Shown in pieces: positions 323 through 35,354 of a stretch of 64,000 bases of DNA. Every line of letters starts with the position of its first letter. The first letter of the stretch is position 1. The stretch is from Sphingobacteriales bacterium (GTDB lineage: Bacteria; Bacteroidota; Bacteroidia; Chitinophagales; LD1): NCBI GenBank assembly GCA_018262795.1, contig JADFDM010000006.1, positions 1 to 64,000 of the forward strand, read 5' to 3'. The translations under genes and the position numbers were made by a program. The notes under the pieces are model-generated. The model searched no databases and was not told the DNA's origin. It saw only the letters and a program-made list of their open reading frames with translations.

Positions 323-3300
323 TGTTACTCTAACTTTAATACTCGCTGTTTGATACAAAGACTTTACCTGCGTGGCCGTGAGTGAAGTATTGAAAATTTT
401 CAACTCATCTATTATGCCCGGGAAAGTTTCATTTATTCCATTACTTCTTGGACCCACTGTAACAGGTGCAGTATTTGCTGATCTTGCATGGGTAATACTA
501 GCAATAGCAGCACTACCCACCAATGCCCCATCTACATACATATTAAAGTTTGTGCCATCGGCCACCGCCACAATGTGGTGCCACTGATTCAATGAAGGCT
601 GATTGATAACCTGGATATAGGAACCGCCAGGATTTCCGCCAACGTTTGCTCCCATAATAGCTACAAAACCGCCACTATAAGACCAAATACCGGCCGTTGA
701 GTTACTCCAGCTACCACCTGTTGCCTTGTTTACCAACACAGAATAATTGGTCCATGCAGTTGGGTACGCCCATACGGATATTGTAAAATTATTTGATGTG
801 CCGAATACGTCAGTGGATAGCTGTGAAGTATTCGGAATTGTAATCTTATCGGTAGATGCGCTGAACTGATACCCCTTAGAATTAATTCCAGCTGCAAGAG
901 TTGCGCCTGTAACCGTTCCATCATTGCCGTTGATCATATCATCCGCATCCGCATCAAATGGGTGCCATGCAATTAATCCGGAAGTAGGCGGTGCGCTGGC
1001 ATTGCAGCCTTGCGGAGACTGAGGGATGACCGTATAGGTTTGATCCGTAGTAGGCGATGCCGTAACCGTAGCACCTGCGGTGGTATTTAAACCCGTAGCA
1101 GGGGACCACGTATAGGAGATGGATTGATTAAGGGGAGCTGTAGATGTCACGAAAGCGGGGGTGCCGGCTGCAAAGGTTCCGGTACAGCTTTTCCCTGATG
1201 CATCAAAAATTTGTCCTCCGGTAACTTCATCCATTCGCCAATAGCCTGCCAAACCGGCTGTTCCCGGAGCAACAGTGGTGTTCTTGTTATTCTGAATCTC
1301 GGCTGTAGTTCGGGCGACATTCCAAATTCGCACTTCATCTATTTCCCCATCGTAATTGCCGGCATATCCGGCACCGATTAAAACAGGGCTGCTGCCTGCT
1401 GTGGCGGCAGTATAAGATGGCGTACCGGTAGCGGTAAGCACCCCATTAATATACCAACGCAGTTGATTGTTGGTTAGATCTCTTACAAGCGCAATATGAT
1501 TCCACACTCCCACAGTAAGCGCTGTGCCACTGCCAAATCCCTGATAGGGAGTAGTGTTGGAACCCGCAGTTCCCCAATAATAATTCAGAGTACCATCTAT
1601 TTCCTGTGTAATGGTTCCCTCTCCGCCATAAGCTTTATTGTACGGGTTTCTACGGTCGGAGAAATTATTAGGTTTTAGCCACATCTCTATGGTCTGGTTG
1701 CCTGTGATTTGCAAGGAGGGAGGGCTGCCCATATTCACGTTCATTCCGCTCCCATCAAAGGAAAGTGCATGGCCGGCTAAACTGCTGGCTGCGGTCAGTT
1801 GCACCGAACTTCCGGAGCAAAATGAAGTTGGGCCTGATGTGGTAATCACAGGTGTAGAAGGAGGCTGATTGACTGTTACGGTAGCATTTTTGCAAGAAGT
1901 AGTGTTACAAGTACCCACAGCCCTCACATAGTAATCGGTAGTGGTGGTGGGAGAAACACTTACCGAAGCTCCCGTTCCTGCTGAGGATCCCCCGCAAGCC
2001 CCGGCATTCCATTGCCAGGTAGCTCCTGTTCCCAATCCGCCATTTACATCAAATCCATTTAATAAATCCTGAATACTCGGTTCCGTTCCGTCCACTACAT
2101 CAATTCTCGGGTAAACCCATCGTTGTCTCGAACTGGCATCATTGCTATAATAAAGATAAGTTCTAAGGCTTGCAGTTGTGGTTCCTGGCGTCCATTTAAA
2201 ATCGCTGGAGGTAGAACCAATTTTTCCGCTGGTGGTTGTATAGAGTCCCGACTCAGGGTTGATAGTGGTTCCTGTGTATGGTGCCGGATTTATAAATCCT
2301 ACTACCAACACCCAGTCACCTACCGGCAATTCAGAACTTGTAGGTGGGGAGGAGGAATACCAGAAATAAGGATTCCCATTACTTGCACCACTTAGAGTAG
2401 TTACATTTCCAAGATTTGTTTGGCAACCTAAATAGAAACGTCCGCTGGCTCCCACTACAGTTCTGTTAACCCAAACTGAATATCTATAAGTTTTTGAGTT
2501 ATCAATGGGTACTTGCGATCCATTCCAACCGCCATCTGCATTCCCATCGCCACTTGGTCTAGCTTCCCAAACTACGGTGGAATTACCCCACGGGTCGGTA
2601 CCATTTATTAAAGCGTTTTCGGTATTCACCGTCCAATTAGGGCTAAAGCCCGTGGCGTTGGTTTGGCCTGCCGTCCAGGTACTTCTATCTATGGAGCCTC
2701 CTGTGGCGATGCCGGAGTTAACGGTTAAGGTGGAAGACCCTCCGCTACAAATACCCCCCGGGTTTGCGGTGGCGGTCAATACAACCGAAGGCCTTTGCAC
2801 TGTTACGGTTCCACTTTTACAAGCAGTTGTATTGGTACATCCACTGGTTCCTACCCTGCGCACATAATAAGTAGTATTGGCCGTGGGCGCTACAGTAATG
2901 GAACTTCCTGTACCCAAAACACTTCCGCTACCACATCCATCTGCATACCATTGATAGCTGGCACTGGTGCCGTTAGAGCCTCCCGATGCGGTAAGCGTAA
3001 CCGGGCTACCCGCACAAATGGTTCCTGTGCCTGAAATACTGGTGGGGGCTGTTGGAGCTGAATTTACCGTTACATTAACAGCAGGGGAAACGGCCGTACA
3101 CCCATTGTTATTAATAACAGATCGAACATAAAGAACAGTGCCACCACTTTGTGAGGATGTCCAAGAAGCAGGGTTATTGGTTTGCCATGAACCTGACCAA
3201 GTACCACCGGTGCCGCCCCATTGATATTGAAAATAGTTAAAACTACCTTTACTAAAGCCAGAAGCTGAATAGCCCACACTGCTTCCTAAACATACCGAAC

Positions 3301-5278
3301 CGCCCGATCCGGGGGTTTGAGTTACAGAGCCGGGAATAGGAGTATTATTCCCATAGGTCAAAACAGCAGAAGTGCTGGACCAAGTGCAGCTCCCTCTACT
3401 TGCCTCTACGCTCATACTTGTAGAGGTACCGGAGAACCAATTTGTATTATTTCCGGTTACTGTGCCACCGGTTCCGTTTGAAACTATTCTAACTGCATTA
3501 ACATTTGAAGGGTAGCTCCATGATAAATGATAATAAGTATTTGCAGAAATGGTTACACTTCTATAGGCTCCCGAACCTACCCTGACGGTGCCATTGCTAC
3601 TACACCCACTTGGTACAGTAGGTGCCGGAGATGAACTGCCTTCTGAAGCAATTTTGTAGCCTGAGGGATCATAAGTTACAACAATATATGGCGCATAAGT
3701 AGTGCCGTAGTACCAACCATAAATGTACATGTAATTAGTCCCTGAATTAATAGTTTCCTGATAAGCTACACCAAAAGTGCTATTCGCCATTATATCTGTA
3801 GTAGCCGTTCCCCATAAAGCAACACTGTTTCTACCGGTAGCTCCAGGGCCGTTGCCCATATAATAAGATGTTCCGGCTGTTTCGGCTGACCAAAGGGTAG
3901 CACAACTTGTAGTATAAGCCCCTGCCTTTCTGAAAGCAATAGAAGGAGTGGTAGTACCAGAACCATCATTATAATAACTAAAAACTATGCTACCTACACA
4001 AGAACCACTAGGGATGGTACTGGTGAGGAAATACGCCCAACCATTAGGGTACGAGTATGGATACGAAATATAATCTCCGAGATAGCTATATCCGCCATAA
4101 CAAGTAGAACTGCTGGCCGAAAAACCGGAGTAAGGATTAACAGCATAATTATAAATGTTTACAGAGGGGTCAATTACCACAGGGTAAGCCCGTTGAGCAT
4201 CATTTAACCAAGCAACTGGAACGTGAGTTTCAAGATAAACGCCTCCTGATGCTGGCACTACTTTCATGGAGCCGTCAATACGTCCGGGGCTTGCATTTGC
4301 GTTTTGGCTTACCGTTGGGTTCTGTTCCTTAATTACCGGATTCAGAATGTCCATCATAAAGTTACCGTGGTTATCTAAAACCACAAATCCGGTTTTGTTA
4401 ACTACGTCTCCGCAGTTGGGGCAATCTGCCTCTTTTCTTGATACCACTTTCCATCCTTCGGGAAGTTTTAAAAACTCTCGGCAAACCAAAGTTGAATTAT
4501 TATTGCTGCTGTTGATGAATGCAGGTTTTTGGTTTAATACAATTTCATGATCAACTCCGGTGCTGCGTACTATAATTTGGTCGTCTGCAAAAGGATATGC
4601 TCCCTTGTAAGTAATCTTATTGTCATCCACCGTAGCTACCGCCTGGTTATCGGCCTCCATAATGTCTGACTCTACACCAGTTGGCGATACCATCCACATT
4701 TTGTTCTCCGCTCCTAATAGCACTTCCCCAGACGGTAATTTTATTAAATGCCCTTGGTTGACAGAATTTGAAAAATAGAGTTGGTATTTGTTCTCGGTAA
4801 CCGCTAAGGGGAATTTGAAATTTAAACCATTGGGGGTTGGTCTTATATCCGTCCGTATATCTTCCCAAGCAGAGGTCCCAGTCTTTCTATAATGCAATTC
4901 AGCCTGTGAAATAACTGCTGTTACTTGACCATTGCTGTTTAAAAAATGTTTGGAAACAGCATCGCGTTTCGAAAGAATTTCTTGCTCGGGTTTAAACCCA
5001 TAAAACATACCGCCCTCGCGCCATTTCGAATCCAATACAGAACGTTTTTCGGTAGCAATTACCTTATCCGAATTTGAATTTTTAGCAGTGCTGATTTCGC
5101 TGTTTTGCTCTTCGGAAGCGGAGGAATTCGTAGCAGTTACCGCTTCTTCTCGCGATGCTGCTTGTGGCGTTTGGCTAAATCCCCGTTGCGCAAAGCCCAT
5201 CATCCATAGAAATAAAATCAAGGTAGCTGCCTTACAAGTAGTTGGGAATGCCGGGAGGAACTTGTAGTTCTTATTCAT
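1..5278 (-). CDS. Giant secreted multidomain protein, 5' part (3' end outside window)
   Basis: The frame is open from the ATG at 5278 to the window edge (about 1759 codons); I found no stop in the stretches I read codon by codon. The N-terminus is signal-peptide-like, with a hydrophobic stretch at residues 15-35. Residues ~60-400 form a non-repetitive module ending near a short-chain phrase, YPVVIDPSVNIYNY. Then come Ig/PKD-like beta-sandwich modules with the recurring pattern CxGSxVTL...YQW...YYVR. Residues ~1166-1326 and ~1463-1639 each look like a LamG/concanavalin-fold domain (first one starts ALSFDGSGMNVNMG; both contain W-H-H-I or W-N-H-I phrases). After residue ~1650 a tandem 84-residue Big2-like repeat begins. 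By analogy with similar Bacteroidota proteins this is probably exported by the T9SS and surface-attached, but the C-terminal sorting domain would lie outside the window. Confidence 0.85.
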   Translation of the reverse strand, partial: MNKNYKFLPAFPTTCKAATLILFLWMMGFAQRGFSQTPQAASREEAVTATNSSASEEQNSEISTAKNSNSDKVIATEKRSVLDSKWREGGMFYGFKPEQEILSKRDAVSKHFLNSNGQVTAVISQAELHYRKTGTSAWEDIRTDIRPTPNGLNFKFPLAVTENKYQLYFSNSVNQGHLIKLPSGEVLLGAENKMWMVSPTGVESDIMEADNQAVATVDDNKITYKGAYPFADDQIIVRSTGVDHEIVLNQKPAFINSSNNNSTLVCREFLKLPEGWKVVSRKEADCPNCGDVVNKTGFVVLDNHGNFMMDILNPVIKEQNPTVSQNANASPGRIDGSMKVVPASGGVYLETHVPVAWLNDAQRAYPVVIDPSVNIYNYAVNPYSGFSASSSTCYGGYSYLGDYISYPYSYPNGWAYFLTSTIPSGSCVGSIVFSYYNDGSGTTTPSIAFRKAGAYTTSCATLWSAETAGTSYYMGNGPGATGRNSVALWGTATTDIMANSTFGVAYQETINSGTNYMYIYGWYYGTTYAPYIVVTYDPSGYKIASEGSSSPAPTVPSGCSSNGTVRVGSGAYRSVTISANTYYHLSWSYPSNVNAVRIVSNGTGGTVTGNNTNWFSGTSTSMSVEASRGSCTWSSTSAVLTYGNNTPIPGSVTQTPGSGGSVCLGSSVGYSASGFSKGSFNYFQYQWGGTGGTWSGSWQTNNPASWTSSQSGGTVLYVRSVINNNGCTAVSPAVNVTVNSAPTAPTSISGTGTICAGSPVTLTASGGSNGTSASYQWYADGCGSGSVLGTGSSITVAPTANTTYYVRRVGTSGCTNTTACKSGTVTVQRPSVVLTATANPGGICSGGSSTLTVNSGIATGGSIDRSTWTAGQTNATGFSPNWTVNTENALINGTDPWGNSTVVWEARPSGDGNADGGWNGSQVPIDNSKTYRYSVWVNRTVVGASGRFYLGCQTNLGNVTTLSGASNGNPYFWYSSSPPTSSELPVGDWVLVVGFINPAPYTGTTINPESGLYTTTSGKIGSTSSDFKWTPGTTTASLRTYLYYSNDASSRQRWVYPRIDVVDGTEPSIQDLLNGFDVNGGLGTGATWQWNAGACGGSSAGTGASVSVSPTTTTDYYVRAVGTCNTTSCKNATVTVNQPPSTPVITTSGPTSFCSGSSVQLTAASSLAGHALSFDGSGMNVNMGSPPSLQITGNQTIEMWLKPNNFSDRRNPYNKAYGGEGTITQEIDGTLNYYWGTAGSNTTPYQGFGSGTALTVGVWNHIALVRDLTNNQLRWYINGVLTATGTPSYTAATAGSSPVLIGAGYAGNYDGEIDEVRIWNVARTTAEIQNNKNTTVAPGTAGLAGYWRMDEVTGGQIFDASGKSCTGTFAAGTPAFVTSTAPLNQSISYTWSPATGLNTTAGATVTASPTTDQTYTVIPQSPQGCNASAPPTSGLIAWHPFDADADDMINGNDGTVTGATLAAGINSKGYQFSASTDKITIPNTSQLSTDVFGTSNNFTISVWAYPTAWTNYSVLVNKATGGSWSNSTAGIWSYSGGFVAIMGANVGGNPGGSYIQVINQPSLNQWHHIVAVADGTNFNMYVDGALVGSAAIASITHARSANTAPVTVGPRSNGINETFPGIIDELKIFNTSLTATQVKSLYQTASIKVRVTPTASAGTVTAGTTPQCIGGTTTYTVAGVVLGGGTGAWSSSNGSVASVNSSGLVTALTAGNTNITYTVTGGCGGTKTASKPYVVTPNASAGTVTAGTTPQCIGGTTTY

Positions 5279-29971: not shown

Positions 29972-30766
29972 TTATTGTGCCTTCATGGCAGATAGCATAT
30001 TACCATATATCTGATTCAACGATATCAGATTCTTGTTTAATGCCGCCAAATTTTCACGGTATTTAATAGCATCGGTAGCAGTTTCAGACAAAGCCTGCGC
30101 TGCTTCATTCAGATTGCCAAAGAATTTATTCATGGCTTTCAAGTGATTATTTGAATCTTGAAGTTCCAACTCATAGATAGCATTTAGTTGAGAAAGATTC
30201 TTCACCATCCCTTGTACCTGCTCGTGATATACTTTAGTAAACTCAGCGCCTTGCCCAATCTGACCTACTGCTGTGGTTGCACTCGCAGCAGCCTGTGCAA
30301 AAGAAGTGATTTGACCTGCGGCACTTTTCGCGCTTTTCGAAAAATCATTTGCCGCTACCGTAGCTTCTGTTAAATCATTGAGTTTACTTACGCTTTCGCC
30401 TAAAGAGTTAAAACCCTTACCTAAACTATTTATCAATTCGGGGCCAACTTTTGCATCGCTCAACATTTTATCTAATTGCTGGGTTAAAGGTTTGCCCCCT
30501 TTGTTGATTGGACCTTCACCTGCTAATTCAGGATATACTCTTTCCCATTCGTATTCATCATGCATAGCCTGCTGTGGCTCAAATCCAAATATAAAAAACA
30601 CAAGTACCTCAGTTCCCATGCCTACGATAAGCGCCAAATTAGCACCTGGCCAGTGCAAAATTTTGAAGAGCGCCCCTCCAATAACTATCGATGCACCAAA
30701 AGAGTACAGATAGTTTAGTAATGTTCTTGCTCTTAGAGTTGTTAAAGGATGCCTTTTAGCTGCCAT
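29972..30766 (-). CDS. gldL: Type IX secretion motor protein GldL/PorL
   Basis: 264 residues. Two N-terminal membrane helices (~17-36 and ~42-60) with the conserved buried Glu53 in G-M-G-T-E-V-L-V-F-F, the proton-channel residue of the family, then a cytoplasmic coiled-coil-rich tail (~90-264). GldL with GldM forms the inner-membrane rotary motor that powers type IX secretion and gliding. 105 bases follow gldK; no signal peptide, as expected. Confidence 0.96.
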   Translation of the reverse strand: MAAKRHPLTTLRARTLLNYLYSFGASIVIGGALFKILHWPGANLALIVGMGTEVLVFFIFGFEPQQAMHDEYEWERVYPELAGEGPINKGGKPLTQQLDKMLSDAKVGPELINSLGKGFNSLGESVSKLNDLTEATVAANDFSKSAKSAAGQITSFAQAAASATTAVGQIGQGAEFTKVYHEQVQGMVKNLSQLNAIYELELQDSNNHLKAMNKFFGNLNEAAQALSETATDAIKYRENLAALNKNLISLNQIYGNMLSAMKAQ

Positions 30767-30871: not shown

Positions 30872-32134
30872 TTAGTTGTCGGTGATATCTCTTCCTAAGA
30901 ATGTGGTAATACATCTGAATCCGACATAAGATTTTGCCGAGTCAGCATACTCCCAATGGCGAGTGCCGGTTTGGATATAGTAACCGATATCTTTCCATGA
31001 TCCTCCTCTTATTACTTTTCGCTTCATTGCTTCTGGCTCTGACTCCTGAGCATCGTAACGAATATCAGGGTTTAAATCGTGTATAAAGGAATAAGAGTTC
31101 TCATAAAAAGCGGAGGAAGTCCATTCTGCAACATTGCCGGCCATACAATATAAGCCATAGTCATTAGGCCAATAAGCATCTGCACGAACTGTATAAAAAC
31201 CACCATCCTCAGGATAATTACCTCTTCCTGGTTTAAAGTTAGCAAGTATGCAACCTTTTGTATTTCTTACGTAAGGGCCACCCCAAGGATAAGGGGACAA
31301 TTTCTTCCCGCCACGAGCGGCATATTCCCATTCAGATTCAGTAGGTAAGCGGAAAATGTCCATTAATGGTTCTCCGCGTGGAGTCTTATAATCTTCCCAT
31401 AGTCTCGTTCTCCAATAGCAGAAAGCATTCGCTTGTGGCCAAGTTACTCCTACAACCGGATAATCATCAAAAGCTGGGTGCCAAAAATAATTCCGAGTCA
31501 TTGGTTCATTGTAGGAGTAAGTGAAATCTCTTACCCAAACCAAAGTGTCGGGATACACATCCACCGATTCTTTATGAATAAAACTTGTTCTTGATTTTCC
31601 TCTGTTCTTTGTTAATGAAGCGGCTTTGTAGTCAAACCATTCATAATCATATTTCATTTTACTCAGATCAAGTTCTTTTCTTCCCCAAACTCTTTCTTCA
31701 GCAGGCAGATAAATATCTTCTAATTGTTCGTTTTTATTTTTCCCACCCCATTCAATTTTCTTATTCCAATCTACGGCCTCATTTCCATCGTCATCAGTGG
31801 TTACGTCACCTAACAGTTTATGAGCCACAGAGTCCCGAACATAATTAATGAACTGACGATACTCGTTATTCGTTATTTCCGTATCGTCCATGTAAAAGCC
31901 TACAATAGATACTTGTTTAGAACGTGCTTGATGGCTTGAGTTTACATCTTGATCACTAGGCCCAATATGTAAAACCCCAGAAGGAATAAAAACCATTCCA
32001 TACGGAGTAATCGGATTCCACTTAGGTCTATCAAGTTCACCTAAAAGTTGTCCGTTATAACCACCCTTGCAACTGGCAACAAAAAGCAAAACAATAACCG
32101 AAGCTTTGCCAAGAAGTCCATGTAATTTTTTCAT
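30872..32134 (-). CDS. gldK: Type IX secretion/gliding lipoprotein GldK/PorK
   Basis: 420 residues from the ATG at 32134, which gives a lipobox V-A-S-C with Cys22; an upstream in-frame ATG adds 33 unsuitable residues. The body is a formylglycine-generating-enzyme (FGE-sulfatase) fold (~40-415), with W-E-Y-A-A-R-G-G, N-V-A-E-W-T and R-G-G-S-W, but the fold is structural here. It rings with GldN/PorN under the outer membrane. It follows porP by 149 bases. Confidence 0.95.
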   Translation of the reverse strand: MKKLHGLLGKASVIVLLFVASCKGGYNGQLLGELDRPKWNPITPYGMVFIPSGVLHIGPSDQDVNSSHQARSKQVSIVGFYMDDTEITNNEYRQFINYVRDSVAHKLLGDVTTDDDGNEAVDWNKKIEWGGKNKNEQLEDIYLPAEERVWGRKELDLSKMKYDYEWFDYKAASLTKNRGKSRTSFIHKESVDVYPDTLVWVRDFTYSYNEPMTRNYFWHPAFDDYPVVGVTWPQANAFCYWRTRLWEDYKTPRGEPLMDIFRLPTESEWEYAARGGKKLSPYPWGGPYVRNTKGCILANFKPGRGNYPEDGGFYTVRADAYWPNDYGLYCMAGNVAEWTSSAFYENSYSFIHDLNPDIRYDAQESEPEAMKRKVIRGGSWKDIGYYIQTGTRHWEYADSAKSYVGFRCITTFLGRDITDN

Positions 32135-32283
32135 GTTTTTGATTTTGAAAGATTTCCCCGTTATTTTTAAAGTGCGTAAATATAAACAGTTTTTGTTTTC
32201 GCAAAAGTAATTGAAAAAAAATCGGTGAGGCATGTGTTAATAACGTTTCCCGCTCCCGTTTGTTTCGCTTTAATACTCCCCAT

Positions 32284-33258
32284 TCAATTAAATCTAGGGT
32301 TATAATAGTAGTACCCTTTTGCCTCTTTTTTCTTCAGTGAATAACGATAACTCAAACTTAACTCATGCGACCCCGTATTGAATTTACTCAGATACGATAG
32401 GTTGGCATCATACGAATATACTAATTGAAATCCTTTGTACCTAACTCCCAAAATTAACGCTAACGCATCAATTGTCTTTTTAGTGTATCCTCTAAACGAA
32501 ATTCCGGTTATGATATTGTTGATAATAGTGAAGTTGAGAGAAGCATCGGCCTGTACTTTTTTAAGATCTGATTTAATTAGTGCGGTCGGTTCGATTTGTA
32601 GCTTTTTACTTACTGTAAAATTGTACCCTCCTGAAAAAAAGATAGTTCGCGCAAAACTGACTTTACTCTTTCTGCTCCCCGTATAAATTGTAGCAGATGA
32701 CAGCACAATATGATTTAAAGCAACACCGGCAAAATATTTCGTGTTATTAAAATAGAGGCCTACCGAAAAATCAGGCGCAATACCATTTTGCAATGTTGAA
32801 GGTAACACTGCATCATTATGGTTCAATTGTCCGTTGTTATAATCCCCATCCGGTGCTCTTAACTTTGTTCCATCTATAGCTGTTTGAATAATTCCTCCCC
32901 CAAGCCCAACAGCCAAATTTCCCCATTTGAATTTTTTGCGATAATCATAGTTGAGAGAAATGTAGGTCGAACGTTGATAGCCAATTAAGTCATTGCTTAT
33001 TGTTAGCCCGATCCCTGAGGAAGCAGCATAAATGGGCATATTAAAATTAAACGCTTCAGAGGCTATAAAACGGCTGGCTAAGCTCACGTACTGGCTTCTA
33101 TGCAACAGAGAGAGTTCCACCACATCTTCACTACCCGCATAAGCAGGATTAAATAAATAGCGATTGTACATGTGCTGAGTAAACTGAGGTTCAGCCTGTG
33201 AACGAATTTCCTGAACCATTATTAGAGACAAAGCAAGAAGACAGTAATTGCGCAACAT
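32284..33258 (-). CDS. porP: PorP/SprF-family type IX secretion membrane protein
   Basis: 324 residues, signal peptide (1-20), then F-T-Q-H-M-Y-N-R-Y-L-F-N-P-A-Y-A-G, the family's N-terminal signature, followed by a beta-barrel. PorP links cargo or adhesins to the T9SS at the outer membrane. Its position immediately upstream of gldK reproduces the porPKLMN order seen in Porphyromonas gingivalis. The C-terminus is a basic/aromatic tail. Confidence 0.94.
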   Translation of the reverse strand: MLRNYCLLALSLIMVQEIRSQAEPQFTQHMYNRYLFNPAYAGSEDVVELSLLHRSQYVSLASRFIASEAFNFNMPIYAASSGIGLTISNDLIGYQRSTYISLNYDYRKKFKWGNLAVGLGGGIIQTAIDGTKLRAPDGDYNNGQLNHNDAVLPSTLQNGIAPDFSVGLYFNNTKYFAGVALNHIVLSSATIYTGSRKSKVSFARTIFFSGGYNFTVSKKLQIEPTALIKSDLKKVQADASLNFTIINNIITGISFRGYTKKTIDALALILGVRYKGFQLVYSYDANLSYLSKFNTGSHELSLSYRYSLKKKEAKGYYYYNPRFN

Positions 33259-33325: not shown

Positions 33326-34192
33326 CTATTTATTCGATTGTTTCAAATAGTCTTCAAGCGCTACCATAATATTAGGTGTATGTGGAAGTGGGGCCATAAT
33401 ATGCAACTTCAATTTTTTATCTAAAATGGCTCCAGCGGTGGTTACTCCATACGCAGCGATTTTTAGATCACCCTGCTTAAATTTCGGGAAACTATTAAAC
33501 AAAGATCTTATCCCAGTAGGACTGAAAAGCACCAGCATCTGAAATTTATTTATCTCCAGCGTCTTTAAGTTGTTAGGTACAGTTTTGTACATAATGCCCT
33601 CAGAAAAGTTAAAATGATTCGCCCTCATGAAAGAAGGAATTTCATCCTTTCTTACATCAGCGCAGATATAAAGAAAGCGCGTTGCATCGCGATGTTTAAT
33701 TAAAAGAAGACGAAGTTCTTTATTGCTACTCATATCTCCGAAAAACACTTTTCGCTTTCTATACTGTGTGTACTTCTGGAGGTATAATGCAATCGCTTCT
33801 GACGTACAGAAATACTTTGTTTCCTGACTCATTTTTACTCGCAGTTCTTCGCAAATACGAAAAAAATGATCAATAGAATTTCTGCTCGTAAAGATGATAC
33901 CGCTATAATCATTCAAGATGATCCGCTGCTTGCGAAACTCCTTTCCCGGCACTCCTTCAACAGTAATAAAAGGTAGAAAAGTGAACTTTACTTTGTACCT
34001 GGGTTCTAAATCTATATAGGGAGATCGCGTTCCTTCAGGAGGAGTTTGGGCAAGTAAAATATTTTTAATTCTCGTTTTGGGTTCGTGTGAGAGCAGGGAG
34101 GCAAAGTCTCGTTCCTGTTTCGGAGGTATAACGATGTGGACTTTGGAAGTTCCGGATAAAAAAGAAGCAGCACTCTTTTCAGGTGATATCAC
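33326..34192 (-). CDS. hemD: Uroporphyrinogen-III synthase (HemD)
   Basis: 288 residues if started at the GTG at 34192. The HemD fold itself runs from ~residue 43 (I-K-N-I-L-L-A-Q-T-P-P) to the end, with S-P-Y-I-D-L, F-T-S-R-N-S-I-D-H-F-F and a final domain around L-F-S-P-T-G. It cyclises hydroxymethylbilane to uroporphyrinogen III on the haem/corrin path. There is no ATG before the domain at a sensible place, and the frame is open for another ~47 codons upstream, running back into the lysine/alanine gene; this supports expression from a frameshift (see 34291-34318). The first 42 residues are basic and low in complexity. Alternative: independent GTG start. Confidence 0.85.
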   Translation of the reverse strand: MISPEKSAASFLSGTSKVHIVIPPKQERDFASLLSHEPKTRIKNILLAQTPPEGTRSPYIDLEPRYKVKFTFLPFITVEGVPGKEFRKQRIILNDYSGIIFTSRNSIDHFFRICEELRVKMSQETKYFCTSEAIALYLQKYTQYRKRKVFFGDMSSNKELRLLLIKHRDATRFLYICADVRKDEIPSFMRANHFNFSEGIMYKTVPNNLKTLEINKFQMLVLFSPTGIRSLFNSFPKFKQGDLKIAAYGVTTAGAILDKKLKLHIMAPLPHTPNIMVALEDYLKQSNK

Positions 34193-34290
34193 ATCAGCCT
34201 TTTTTCTGAGAGTGCTGCTACTGTTGGATGTTTTGCTACCCTTTACAACACGCTTCGGAGAAGTGGCTTTCGGAGTAACAGATCTTTTCG

Positions 34291-34318
34291 AAGTAGTTTT
34301 GCTACTTACTTTTTTTTT
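34291..34318 (-). other. Candidate -1 frameshift site (A AAA AAG) with hairpin
   Basis: On the minus strand a run of nine A then G ends the lysine/alanine gene, giving the heptamer A AAA AAG in the correct reading frame and a TAA directly after. This is the dnaX-type slippery sequence. Reading one base back joins the frame of hemD without a stop, through GTA at 34309. A 6-bp hairpin (AAGTAG/CTACTT) lies at 34291-34307, closer to the heptamer than is usual for a stimulator. A one-base length error in the A-run would have the same effect. Confidence 0.5.
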
Positions 34319-34473
34319 GCTGCTTTCTTCACCACTTTCTTAGCGGCTTTCTTCGCAGGCTTTTTAGCGGCTTTTTTCACTGCTTTTTTAGCCACTTTCT
34401 TTGCGGCTTTTTTCACCACTTTTTTGGCGGCTTTTTTTGCAGGTTTTTTAGCTGCTTTCTTTTTTGTTGCCAT
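34306..34473 (-). CDS. Lysine/alanine-rich histone-tail-like protein (possible N-part of HemD)
   Basis: 55 residues of KKAAKK, KKVVKK and KKPA blocks with no acidic residue: starts MATKKKAAKKPAKK and ends AAKKK. This resembles the H1-like basic proteins of many bacteria, which bind DNA non-specifically. It starts 3 bases after the DUF4271 stop and ends at TAA (34306) in a slippery A-run; the -1 frame is open into hemD, which would give a 382-residue fusion (55 + 39 linker + 288). Whether it works alone, fused, or both is unknown. Confidence 0.75.
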   Translation of the reverse strand: MATKKKAAKKPAKKAAKKVVKKAAKKVAKKAVKKAAKKPAKKAAKKVVKKAAKKK

Positions 34474-34475
34474 GA

Positions 34476-35354
34476 TTAAACAACTGTTTTGGTTAACAAT
34501 TTAAAGAGTAAAAATATCGGTGATATTTCGACTACACAAACGTAAAGAAAAAAATGATACACACTCTTATACATCATTTTATATCCTGTGGATAACCCTC
34601 TTACAACAAACATTACCAAGAAACCAAAAATCAGTAAAAACGTAATCGCAAAAATGAAATCAAAATATTTTTCGGGTGCCACATAAAAAATAAATAATGC
34701 TGGAATCAGCGCCAATCCTACTGTTTTACATACGATAGAAAAATTGAAGATATATTCATCGCTGATTTCCTTCACTTCAAACACATATCCTAACACGCGA
34801 ATTGCAATGATTTTAATAAGGTAAAAAAATGTGAATAAAATGATCAGAAAAAAAATGGAAGGAGCAGATTTAAGTGGGTCTGCTATGTAGTGGCGCAACA
34901 AAAAGAAATGAATGTACAAGCTTAGCACCACAATAAAATTCACATGCAACAGAAATGAAGAGAACGTCAACTCATCGGTTCGTGTTCTAAAAAACTGCAT
35001 AGCAATATTGCGATTAGCGAATGACTGTAGCATCTCCTCCAAATCCTTACCAAAGGCGGTTTTCACATAAGTAAGCAATGCGAGCAAAAAAAACAGAATG
35101 TACAGACCAACAGGATTTTTTGCTCCTTGTTTCATTTGCTGAACATCGTAAATCATCGTTTTATCCGTATCGGAAAGATAGAAAGGAATGTGGTTGCTTA
35201 GTTCAAGAGAATGCATCAATAACACAGCGTCTTTTTGTGATCTGGAAACAGTTGAACTGTCTATTGAATTTTGAGTCAAAGAATCTGTTTCGAGCCCGAA
35301 CATGCTGATCGGAAACAGCAGCAAAAAGAACACAAGAGTCAAATCACTTTTCAA
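34476..35354 (-). CDS. DUF4271 multi-pass membrane protein
   Basis: 292 residues from a TTG at 35354 immediately after the barrel gene's TAA; no better start gives the N-terminal hydrophobic segment (~5-20). Five to six further hydrophobic segments from ~85 onward. DUF4271 genes commonly sit next to hemD in Bacteroidota, as here, but the role is not known. Operon: barrel - DUF4271 - Lys/Ala protein - hemD, with gaps of 0 and 2 bases. Confidence 0.87.
   Translation of the reverse strand: MKSDLTLVFFLLLFPISMFGLETDSLTQNSIDSSTVSRSQKDAVLLMHSLELSNHIPFYLSDTDKTMIYDVQQMKQGAKNPVGLYILFFLLALLTYVKTAFGKDLEEMLQSFANRNIAMQFFRTRTDELTFSSFLLHVNFIVVLSLYIHFFLLRHYIADPLKSAPSIFFLIILFTFFYLIKIIAIRVLGYVFEVKEISDEYIFNFSIVCKTVGLALIPALFIFYVAPEKYFDFIFAITFLLIFGFLVMFVVRGLSTGYKMMYKSVYHFFLYVCVVEISPIFLLFKLLTKTVV

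Follow-up and report, generated by a model that had tools for sequence, protein, structure and literature searches.

Programmed slippage at a run of nine or ten adenines very probably joins a lysine/alanine-rich open reading frame (ORF), here called the tail, to the HemD-like ORF that follows it in a Sphingobacteriales genome. The window analyzed is the whole 64,000-nucleotide stretch of contig JADFDM010000006.1, in which the genes concerned lie on the minus strand in the order DUF4271 gene, Lys/Ala ORF, HemD-like gene, PorP/SprF gene, and gene for a protein with an FGE-sulfatase domain. Positions 30872-32233 and 29972-30766 presumably encode GldK and GldL, respectively. The features of the locus are as follows.

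34476..35354, minus strand: DUF4271 gene, with its stop 2 nt ahead of the tail ATG
34537..34544, minus strand: TACGTTTG, an element resembling the Bacteroidota -7 promoter element TAnnTTTG
34306..34473, minus strand: Lys/Ala tail ORF of 55 aa in the zero frame, with a TAA stop at 34306-34308
34310..34318, minus strand: slippery run of nine adenines (A9)
34076..34309, minus strand: Ser/Thr/Lys linker, read in the -1 frame of HemD, uninterrupted by stops at all family loci, and with pN/pS below 1 in that frame only
34166..34219, minus strand: hairpin, with an outer stem pairing 34209-34219 with 34166-34176 and an inner stem within 34182-34199
34190..34192, minus strand: GTG, the sole standard start codon in the HemD frame between run and core; not conserved
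34157..34165, minus strand: T-rich tract (TCTTTTTTA) behind the 3' arm of the hairpin
33326..34075, minus strand: HemD-like core (PF02602)
32284..33258, minus strand: PorP/SprF type IX secretion gene (PF11751), downstream of the HemD-like gene

As had been predicted from this stretch, the 55-codon Lys/Ala ORF ends in GCA AAA AAA AAG TAA, placing A AAA AAG directly before the stop and the A9 run at 34310-34318. The HemD-like frame, which ends at 33326, is -1 relative to the Lys/Ala ORF and has no stop from a point upstream of the run, across the linker, and on into the core, and a -1 shift would give the expected product of 382 residues by arithmetic (1148 nt + 1). The statement that hemD lacks an ATG in a suitable place and has only a GTG also held, in that the GTG at 34192 is the only ATG, GTG, or TTG codon ahead of the core. 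The tail ORF has no Pfam match and is the sole match of its kind in its genome, where a search for further Lys/Ala ORFs returned none at an E value of 0.01 or less. No other A9 occurs on either strand of the window, for which shuffled sequences give 7.4 (standard deviation, 3.9). The whole genome contains 61 overlapping A9 matches; 30 loci taken from these represent 25 distinct runs, of which 14 lie in no ORF of at least 90 aa. At L172 (G000:C2:81607), an A10 run stands at the end of a 484-codon ORF and the start of a 399-codon ORF; this is probably an ordinary overlap, as the first ORF ends about where the run starts. The TAnnTTTG-like element TACGTTTG is a likely candidate for the promoter of tail and HemD, and most of the family loci compared carry it, or a close variant of TAnnTTTG, within the final part of the DUF4271 gene.

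The family of the window was sampled with 30 genomes from four genera (g1 to g4), all of which carry the HemD-like gene. The whole junction was readable in 28 loci, and that of genome G004, truncated where its contig stops, was pieced together with another contig (L210) to give a 29th; G010 (L016) is excluded from this number, having an N gap directly behind its A9. (The gap in G010 spans two bases, and HemC in the same genome is found as two matches on contig 61.) All 29 readable genomes contain an uninterrupted A9 (24 genomes) or A10 (5 genomes) and a Lys/Ala ORF beginning MATK, with HemD always in the -1 frame, so that homologs from related genomes keep both the run and the frame relation of the original prediction, although the phase of the run varies. 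The run occurs in all three codon phases, namely, GCA AAA AAA AAG or AAA in g1 (16 of 28 loci), CCT AAA AAA AAA in g4 (7 of 28), and CAA or GAA AAA AAA A.. in g2 and g3 (5 of 28), and the tail stop falls 0 to 5 nt past the run in each of the 28 fully readable loci. An A_AAA_AAA or A_AAA_AAG heptamer is in phase at every locus with this out-of-frame arrangement (slip locus). Linkers in the family have 21 different lengths and tails have 19, indicating that the register has been held through many insertions and deletions. Relatives with a separate hemD and no slippery run are absent from the window's family. This conservation strongly supports the view that the Lys/Ala and HemD-like ORFs are joined in a programmed manner.

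The same data bear on two simpler accounts of the run. An error of sequencing or assembly at the homopolymer, or a difference in run length giving a constitutive fusion, had been raised as an alternative, and the run is indeed a homopolymer, with the N gap of G010 lying right behind one; however, all 29 readable family genomes agree on the -1 relation, and error was rejected as an explanation with near certainty. Homopolymers of this length are also slippery in replication, according to PMC1088944, which would allow phase variation, with replication changing the run length and toggling the fusion between cells. Against this, none of the 33 readable slip loci (29 in the family and 4 in family f4) has the length that would place both parts in one frame, and the A10 loci retain the -1 relation, making phase variation highly improbable.

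Another explanation is that the locus holds two separate genes, with a free tail and a HemD-like protein whose translation is coupled or reinitiated at an internal GTG, TTG, or ATG, the run and the frame being incidental. A standard start codon does occur somewhere in the linker at 27 of 28 family loci (ATG in 7, GTG or TTG in the other 20), and an ATG lies four codons ahead of the core in 4 of 4 f4 loci. However, the positions of these codons are not conserved among family loci, and L020 has no ATG, GTG, or TTG in the HemD frame ahead of the core. Furthermore, the g1 linker upstream of the GTG appears to evolve as coding sequence in the HemD frame, where pN/pS is 0.58 (0.44 to 0.76) compared with 1.07 and 0.90 in the other frames (15 sequences), and differences in the ungapped block number 203, 194, and 436 at the three codon positions. 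Constraint is weak in the part of the linker ahead of the hairpin (pN/pS of 0.70 [0.54 to 0.89] versus 0.93 and 0.92), and the g4 linker block is short and uninformative, another frame scoring lower than the HemD frame. The survival of the register through many indels and the in-frame fusions carried by relatives likewise count against two genes, an arrangement that we regard as improbable.

The ease with which such runs arise by chance counts against programmed slippage. When the Lys codons were redrawn at the AAA frequency of each tail, a terminal run of at least nine adenines arose in 42% of draws (mean of 29 tails), and 28% of draws gave such a run without another of at least eight. Three g4 tails use mostly AAG for lysine yet end in AAA AAA AAA, for which the chance is 0.019 to 0.025, and the runs that appear striking individually are only those of three or four g4 tails (0.02 to 0.08).

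In the wider order, the HemD-like gene is present in at least 388 of 396 genomes; the region upstream was inspected in a fetched subset of these loci, most of which, outside the window's family, show a short extension and no tail. A Lys-rich tail in frame with HemD was found at 19 loci, from f15, f18 (g21), f19, one f3 genome, and one f4 genus, and these in-frame tails show that tail plus HemD is a real architecture. L057 (f3) is ambiguous, being treated as tail-less in the hairpin test and as in-frame in the tree. The in-frame Lys-rich N-terminal tails of L038, L047, L053, L070, L085, and others reach approximately 200 residues. Among 67 named relatives (L102 to L168), only L103, from the window's family, has a Lys-rich out-of-frame ORF. 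As to the question raised earlier of whether the tail is fused or separate in relatives, it is a separate ORF, with HemD in the -1 frame, across the window's family and an in-frame fusion in some other groups of the order. The slip arrangement also occurs in genus g7 of f4, where a Lys/Ala ORF, an A9 run, and HemD in the -1 frame were found in 4 of 4 loci read, two of them cut at a contig end inside the tail; G097, a fifth genome of this genus (62% complete), had no match to the gene. In a tree of 60 HemD cores, slip loci fall into two separated groups on well supported branches. With the long-branched L085 omitted, an AU test did not reject the grouping of all slip loci in one clade (p-AU, 0.351), and a claim of convergence was dropped; the arrangement may have had two origins, with one origin also compatible with these trees.

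Granted that recoding takes place, the sequence pattern points to RNA polymerase as the probable agent, with a -1 shift by the ribosome a lesser but substantial candidate. The run is fixed at 9 to 10 adenines in all three phases, which favors length-dependent slippage by the polymerase, whereas the heptamer alone would suffice for a ribosome. On a faithful transcript, a programmed -1 shift of the ribosome at A_AAA_AAG or A_AAA_AAA would account for the in-phase heptamer at every slip locus and for the hairpin that accompanies the out-of-frame arrangement, as a stimulator would. It accounts less well for a run that never shortens to the seven adenines that would suffice, for a stem that lies 21 to 96 nt past the run, outside ribosome contact, and for the lack of a Shine-Dalgarno (SD)-like 4-mer in the upstream 25 nt at all 30 loci, although SD-like signals carry little weight in Bacteroidota. 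Nor is there excess structure that could serve as a close stimulator in the first 60 nt past the run at most family loci, with exceptions such as L015. As a full account of the locus, ribosomal frameshifting is rather doubtful. Of the programmed -1 frameshift first proposed, the joining of the two frames is upheld by conservation, while the ribosome is the less favored agent given A9 or A10 runs in three phases.

All slip loci examined, 30 in the family (L006 and L016 among them) and 4 in f4, have a long inverted repeat in the linker. Under a strict definition, the arms are 9 to 13 bp around 30 to 45 nt in the readable family loci and 14 to 17 bp around 6 to 10 nt in f4 g7. The hairpin was compared with 40 codon shuffles per locus in 26 family loci (omitting L006, L008, L016, and L024, which are cut or near-copies) and the 4 f4 loci; it exceeded all shuffles in 28 of these 30 slip loci and all but about 3% in L026 and L030. 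No hairpin stood out in the 19 in-frame loci (lowest fraction, 0.12) or in 24 other loci tested with 20 shuffles each (lowest fraction, 0.10).

Within g1, an ungapped alignment of 14 distinct sequences shows 99.2% of 238 cells paired, compared with at most 61% when the arms are slid. Five pairs have changes on both sides, giving a covariation score that was reached by 0 of 500 shuffles, whereas the number of pair types does not exceed that of shuffles (6 versus 7.7). There are no G-U pairs in the stem, which is compatible with quasi-palindrome correction, a process that could preserve perfectly matched arms even in the absence of selection. When 18 sequences drawn from all genera were aligned together with MAFFT, RNAalifold recovered only 5 pairs because the loops differ among genera, and covariation is more soundly counted on the ungapped g1 alignment of 14 rows. 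The letters of the inner loop stem, GG-C-UGAU / AUCA-CC (34182-34199), are nearly invariant in g1 and are largely common to g3 and g4.

A covariance model built from the 14 g1 sequences matches the hairpin at this position in all but one of the 30 family genomes, with strong matches in g1, g3, and g4 and weak ones in two g2 genomes (E values, 0.0066 and 0.014). G004 is matched twice, on overlapping contigs; in G024 the best match lies elsewhere at chance level, and the repeat is visible by inspection. The scan scored 150 of 1131 to 3383 first-look candidates per genome, and among those scored, one other place fell below 1e-3, a shorter hairpin at G016:C388:5915-5959 matched on both strands (E value, 6.9e-5). 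Searches against Rfam gave nothing above the gathering threshold and six subthreshold matches, and a simple terminator scan limited to loops of 3 to 8 nt did not call the hairpin, whose loop is far longer. Inversion of the approximately 32-bp segment between the arms is very unlikely.

The original prediction had placed a hairpin close to the heptamer; the conserved stem instead begins 90 nt past the run in the window. At the distances seen across family loci the hairpin is too far away to stimulate either type of slip directly: it is out of ribosome contact, and its RNA is not yet made while the polymerase is on the run, which suggests that it would act after the slip. A T-rich tract (at least 5 T of the 9 nt behind the stem) is present in 25 of 28 family loci and is lacking in g2 (3 of 3) and f4 (4 of 4). 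Termination at the hairpin is a reasonable conjecture for most of the family. It suits f4 poorly; there, a hairpin that blocks the ATG just behind the stem would fit better.

These elements suggest the following sequence of events. Transcription across the A9 or A10 run would produce a mixture of mRNAs through polymerase slippage. A faithful transcript would yield the Lys/Ala tail alone, ending at the stop 0 to 5 nt past the run; a transcript with one extra A would carry the ribosome through the linker into the core to make the tail-HemD protein (382 residues in the window); and a transcript with one A fewer would lead to a short dead end. The hairpin would silence the HemD-like part unless a ribosome had passed the slip. 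Where ribosomes leave at the tail stop, the hairpin could form and either end transcription at the T-rich tract or block internal initiation. In its most far-reaching and rather unlikely form, the locus would be a slippage-gated attenuator, in which an extra A added by RNA polymerase would decide, via the following ribosome, whether the hairpin forms and HemD is shut off. The run, the short Lys/Ala leader, and the hairpin would then form one device, which may have arisen more than once, with a plain in-frame tail-HemD fusion elsewhere in the order.

The HemD-like core scores 92.6 bits against PF02602, the HEM4 fold family, compared with a threshold of 27.5. The earlier reading of the gene as a heme pathway enzyme was not supported for this organism: HemC (PF01379) and HemE (PF01208), the two heme genes sought, had no matches in the window's genome (98.4% complete), and a role as heme enzyme was rejected there. 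In the family, all 30 genomes have the HemD-like gene, 9 have HemC, and 10 have a second HemD; the latter 10 include all 9 with HemC, located on the same contig with match starts about 1 kb apart, and in the two such loci examined hemC directly precedes hemD. The HemD-like protein falls below all NCBIfam cutoffs, but so do the hemC-linked HemDs of G008 and G024, although these score higher, and the NCBIfam score was dropped as proof that the protein is not HemD. The protein is probably not a heme enzyme in this organism and would be a HemD-fold paralog kept for another reason in a type IX secretion neighborhood. Judged by its composition, the Lys/Ala tail may bind nucleic acid or another polyanion.

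If the proposal is correct, a chromosomal programmed slippage has been kept across an uncultured Bacteroidota family and occurs in a second family, with the in-frame relatives serving as natural controls. It would tie recoding to a widespread HemD-fold protein near type IX secretion genes. What is new is the covarying hairpin that accompanies the out-of-frame arrangement, and its restriction to that arrangement allows a regulatory role to be tested. Such a gene would be expected to be split or mis-started by gene finders, and the name HemD is misleading with respect to heme synthesis.

Several parts of the locus have counterparts in known systems. The tail resembles the Lys/Ala-rich, histone H1-like tails of the AlgP type in its repetitive Lys/Ala/Pro composition, a likeness of composition alone for which no homology is claimed; here, unlike in AlgP-type tails, it is the N-terminal part of a HemD-like protein. 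The core shares its fold family, PF02602, with uroporphyrinogen-III synthase HemD but is found here without HemC and HemE, and 9 of 30 family genomes have a separate, hemC-linked hemD. In Escherichia coli dnaX, a -1 ribosomal frameshift occurs at A AAA AAG with a stem-loop a few bases downstream and an SD-like element upstream. The slip loci resemble it in having such a heptamer in phase and differ in that the stem is 21 to 96 nt away and no SD-like element was seen.

In a literature search that mostly excluded subscription papers, no paper joined uroporphyrinogen-III synthase, frameshift, and slippage, and none joined type IX secretion with HemD. Uroporphyrinogen-III synthase and type IX secretion co-occur in two papers, PMC10101095, where the context is a gene table, and PMC6994654, and nothing that would connect the two subjects emerged. 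PMC3711429 and the part of PMC5009743 searched do not mention hemD or uroporphyrinogen. Slippage on nine adenines in bacteria has been published (PMC5009743 and PMC1088944). As described in the former, polymerase slippage in Shigella spa13 extends a short ORF into a second frame, affecting what lies downstream. The locus described here likewise begins with a short ORF extended into a second frame, but the gene is different, the architecture is that of a tail and HemD, and a conserved downstream hairpin is not described in the passage on spa13. A parallel for the run itself is Thermus thermophilus dnaX, in which, according to PMC1088944, polymerase slippage on a sense-strand A9 gives two products. 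In Thermus dnaX the zero frame encodes the longer product, whereas here the short tail would come from the zero frame and the domain with a catalytic fold from the slipped frame.
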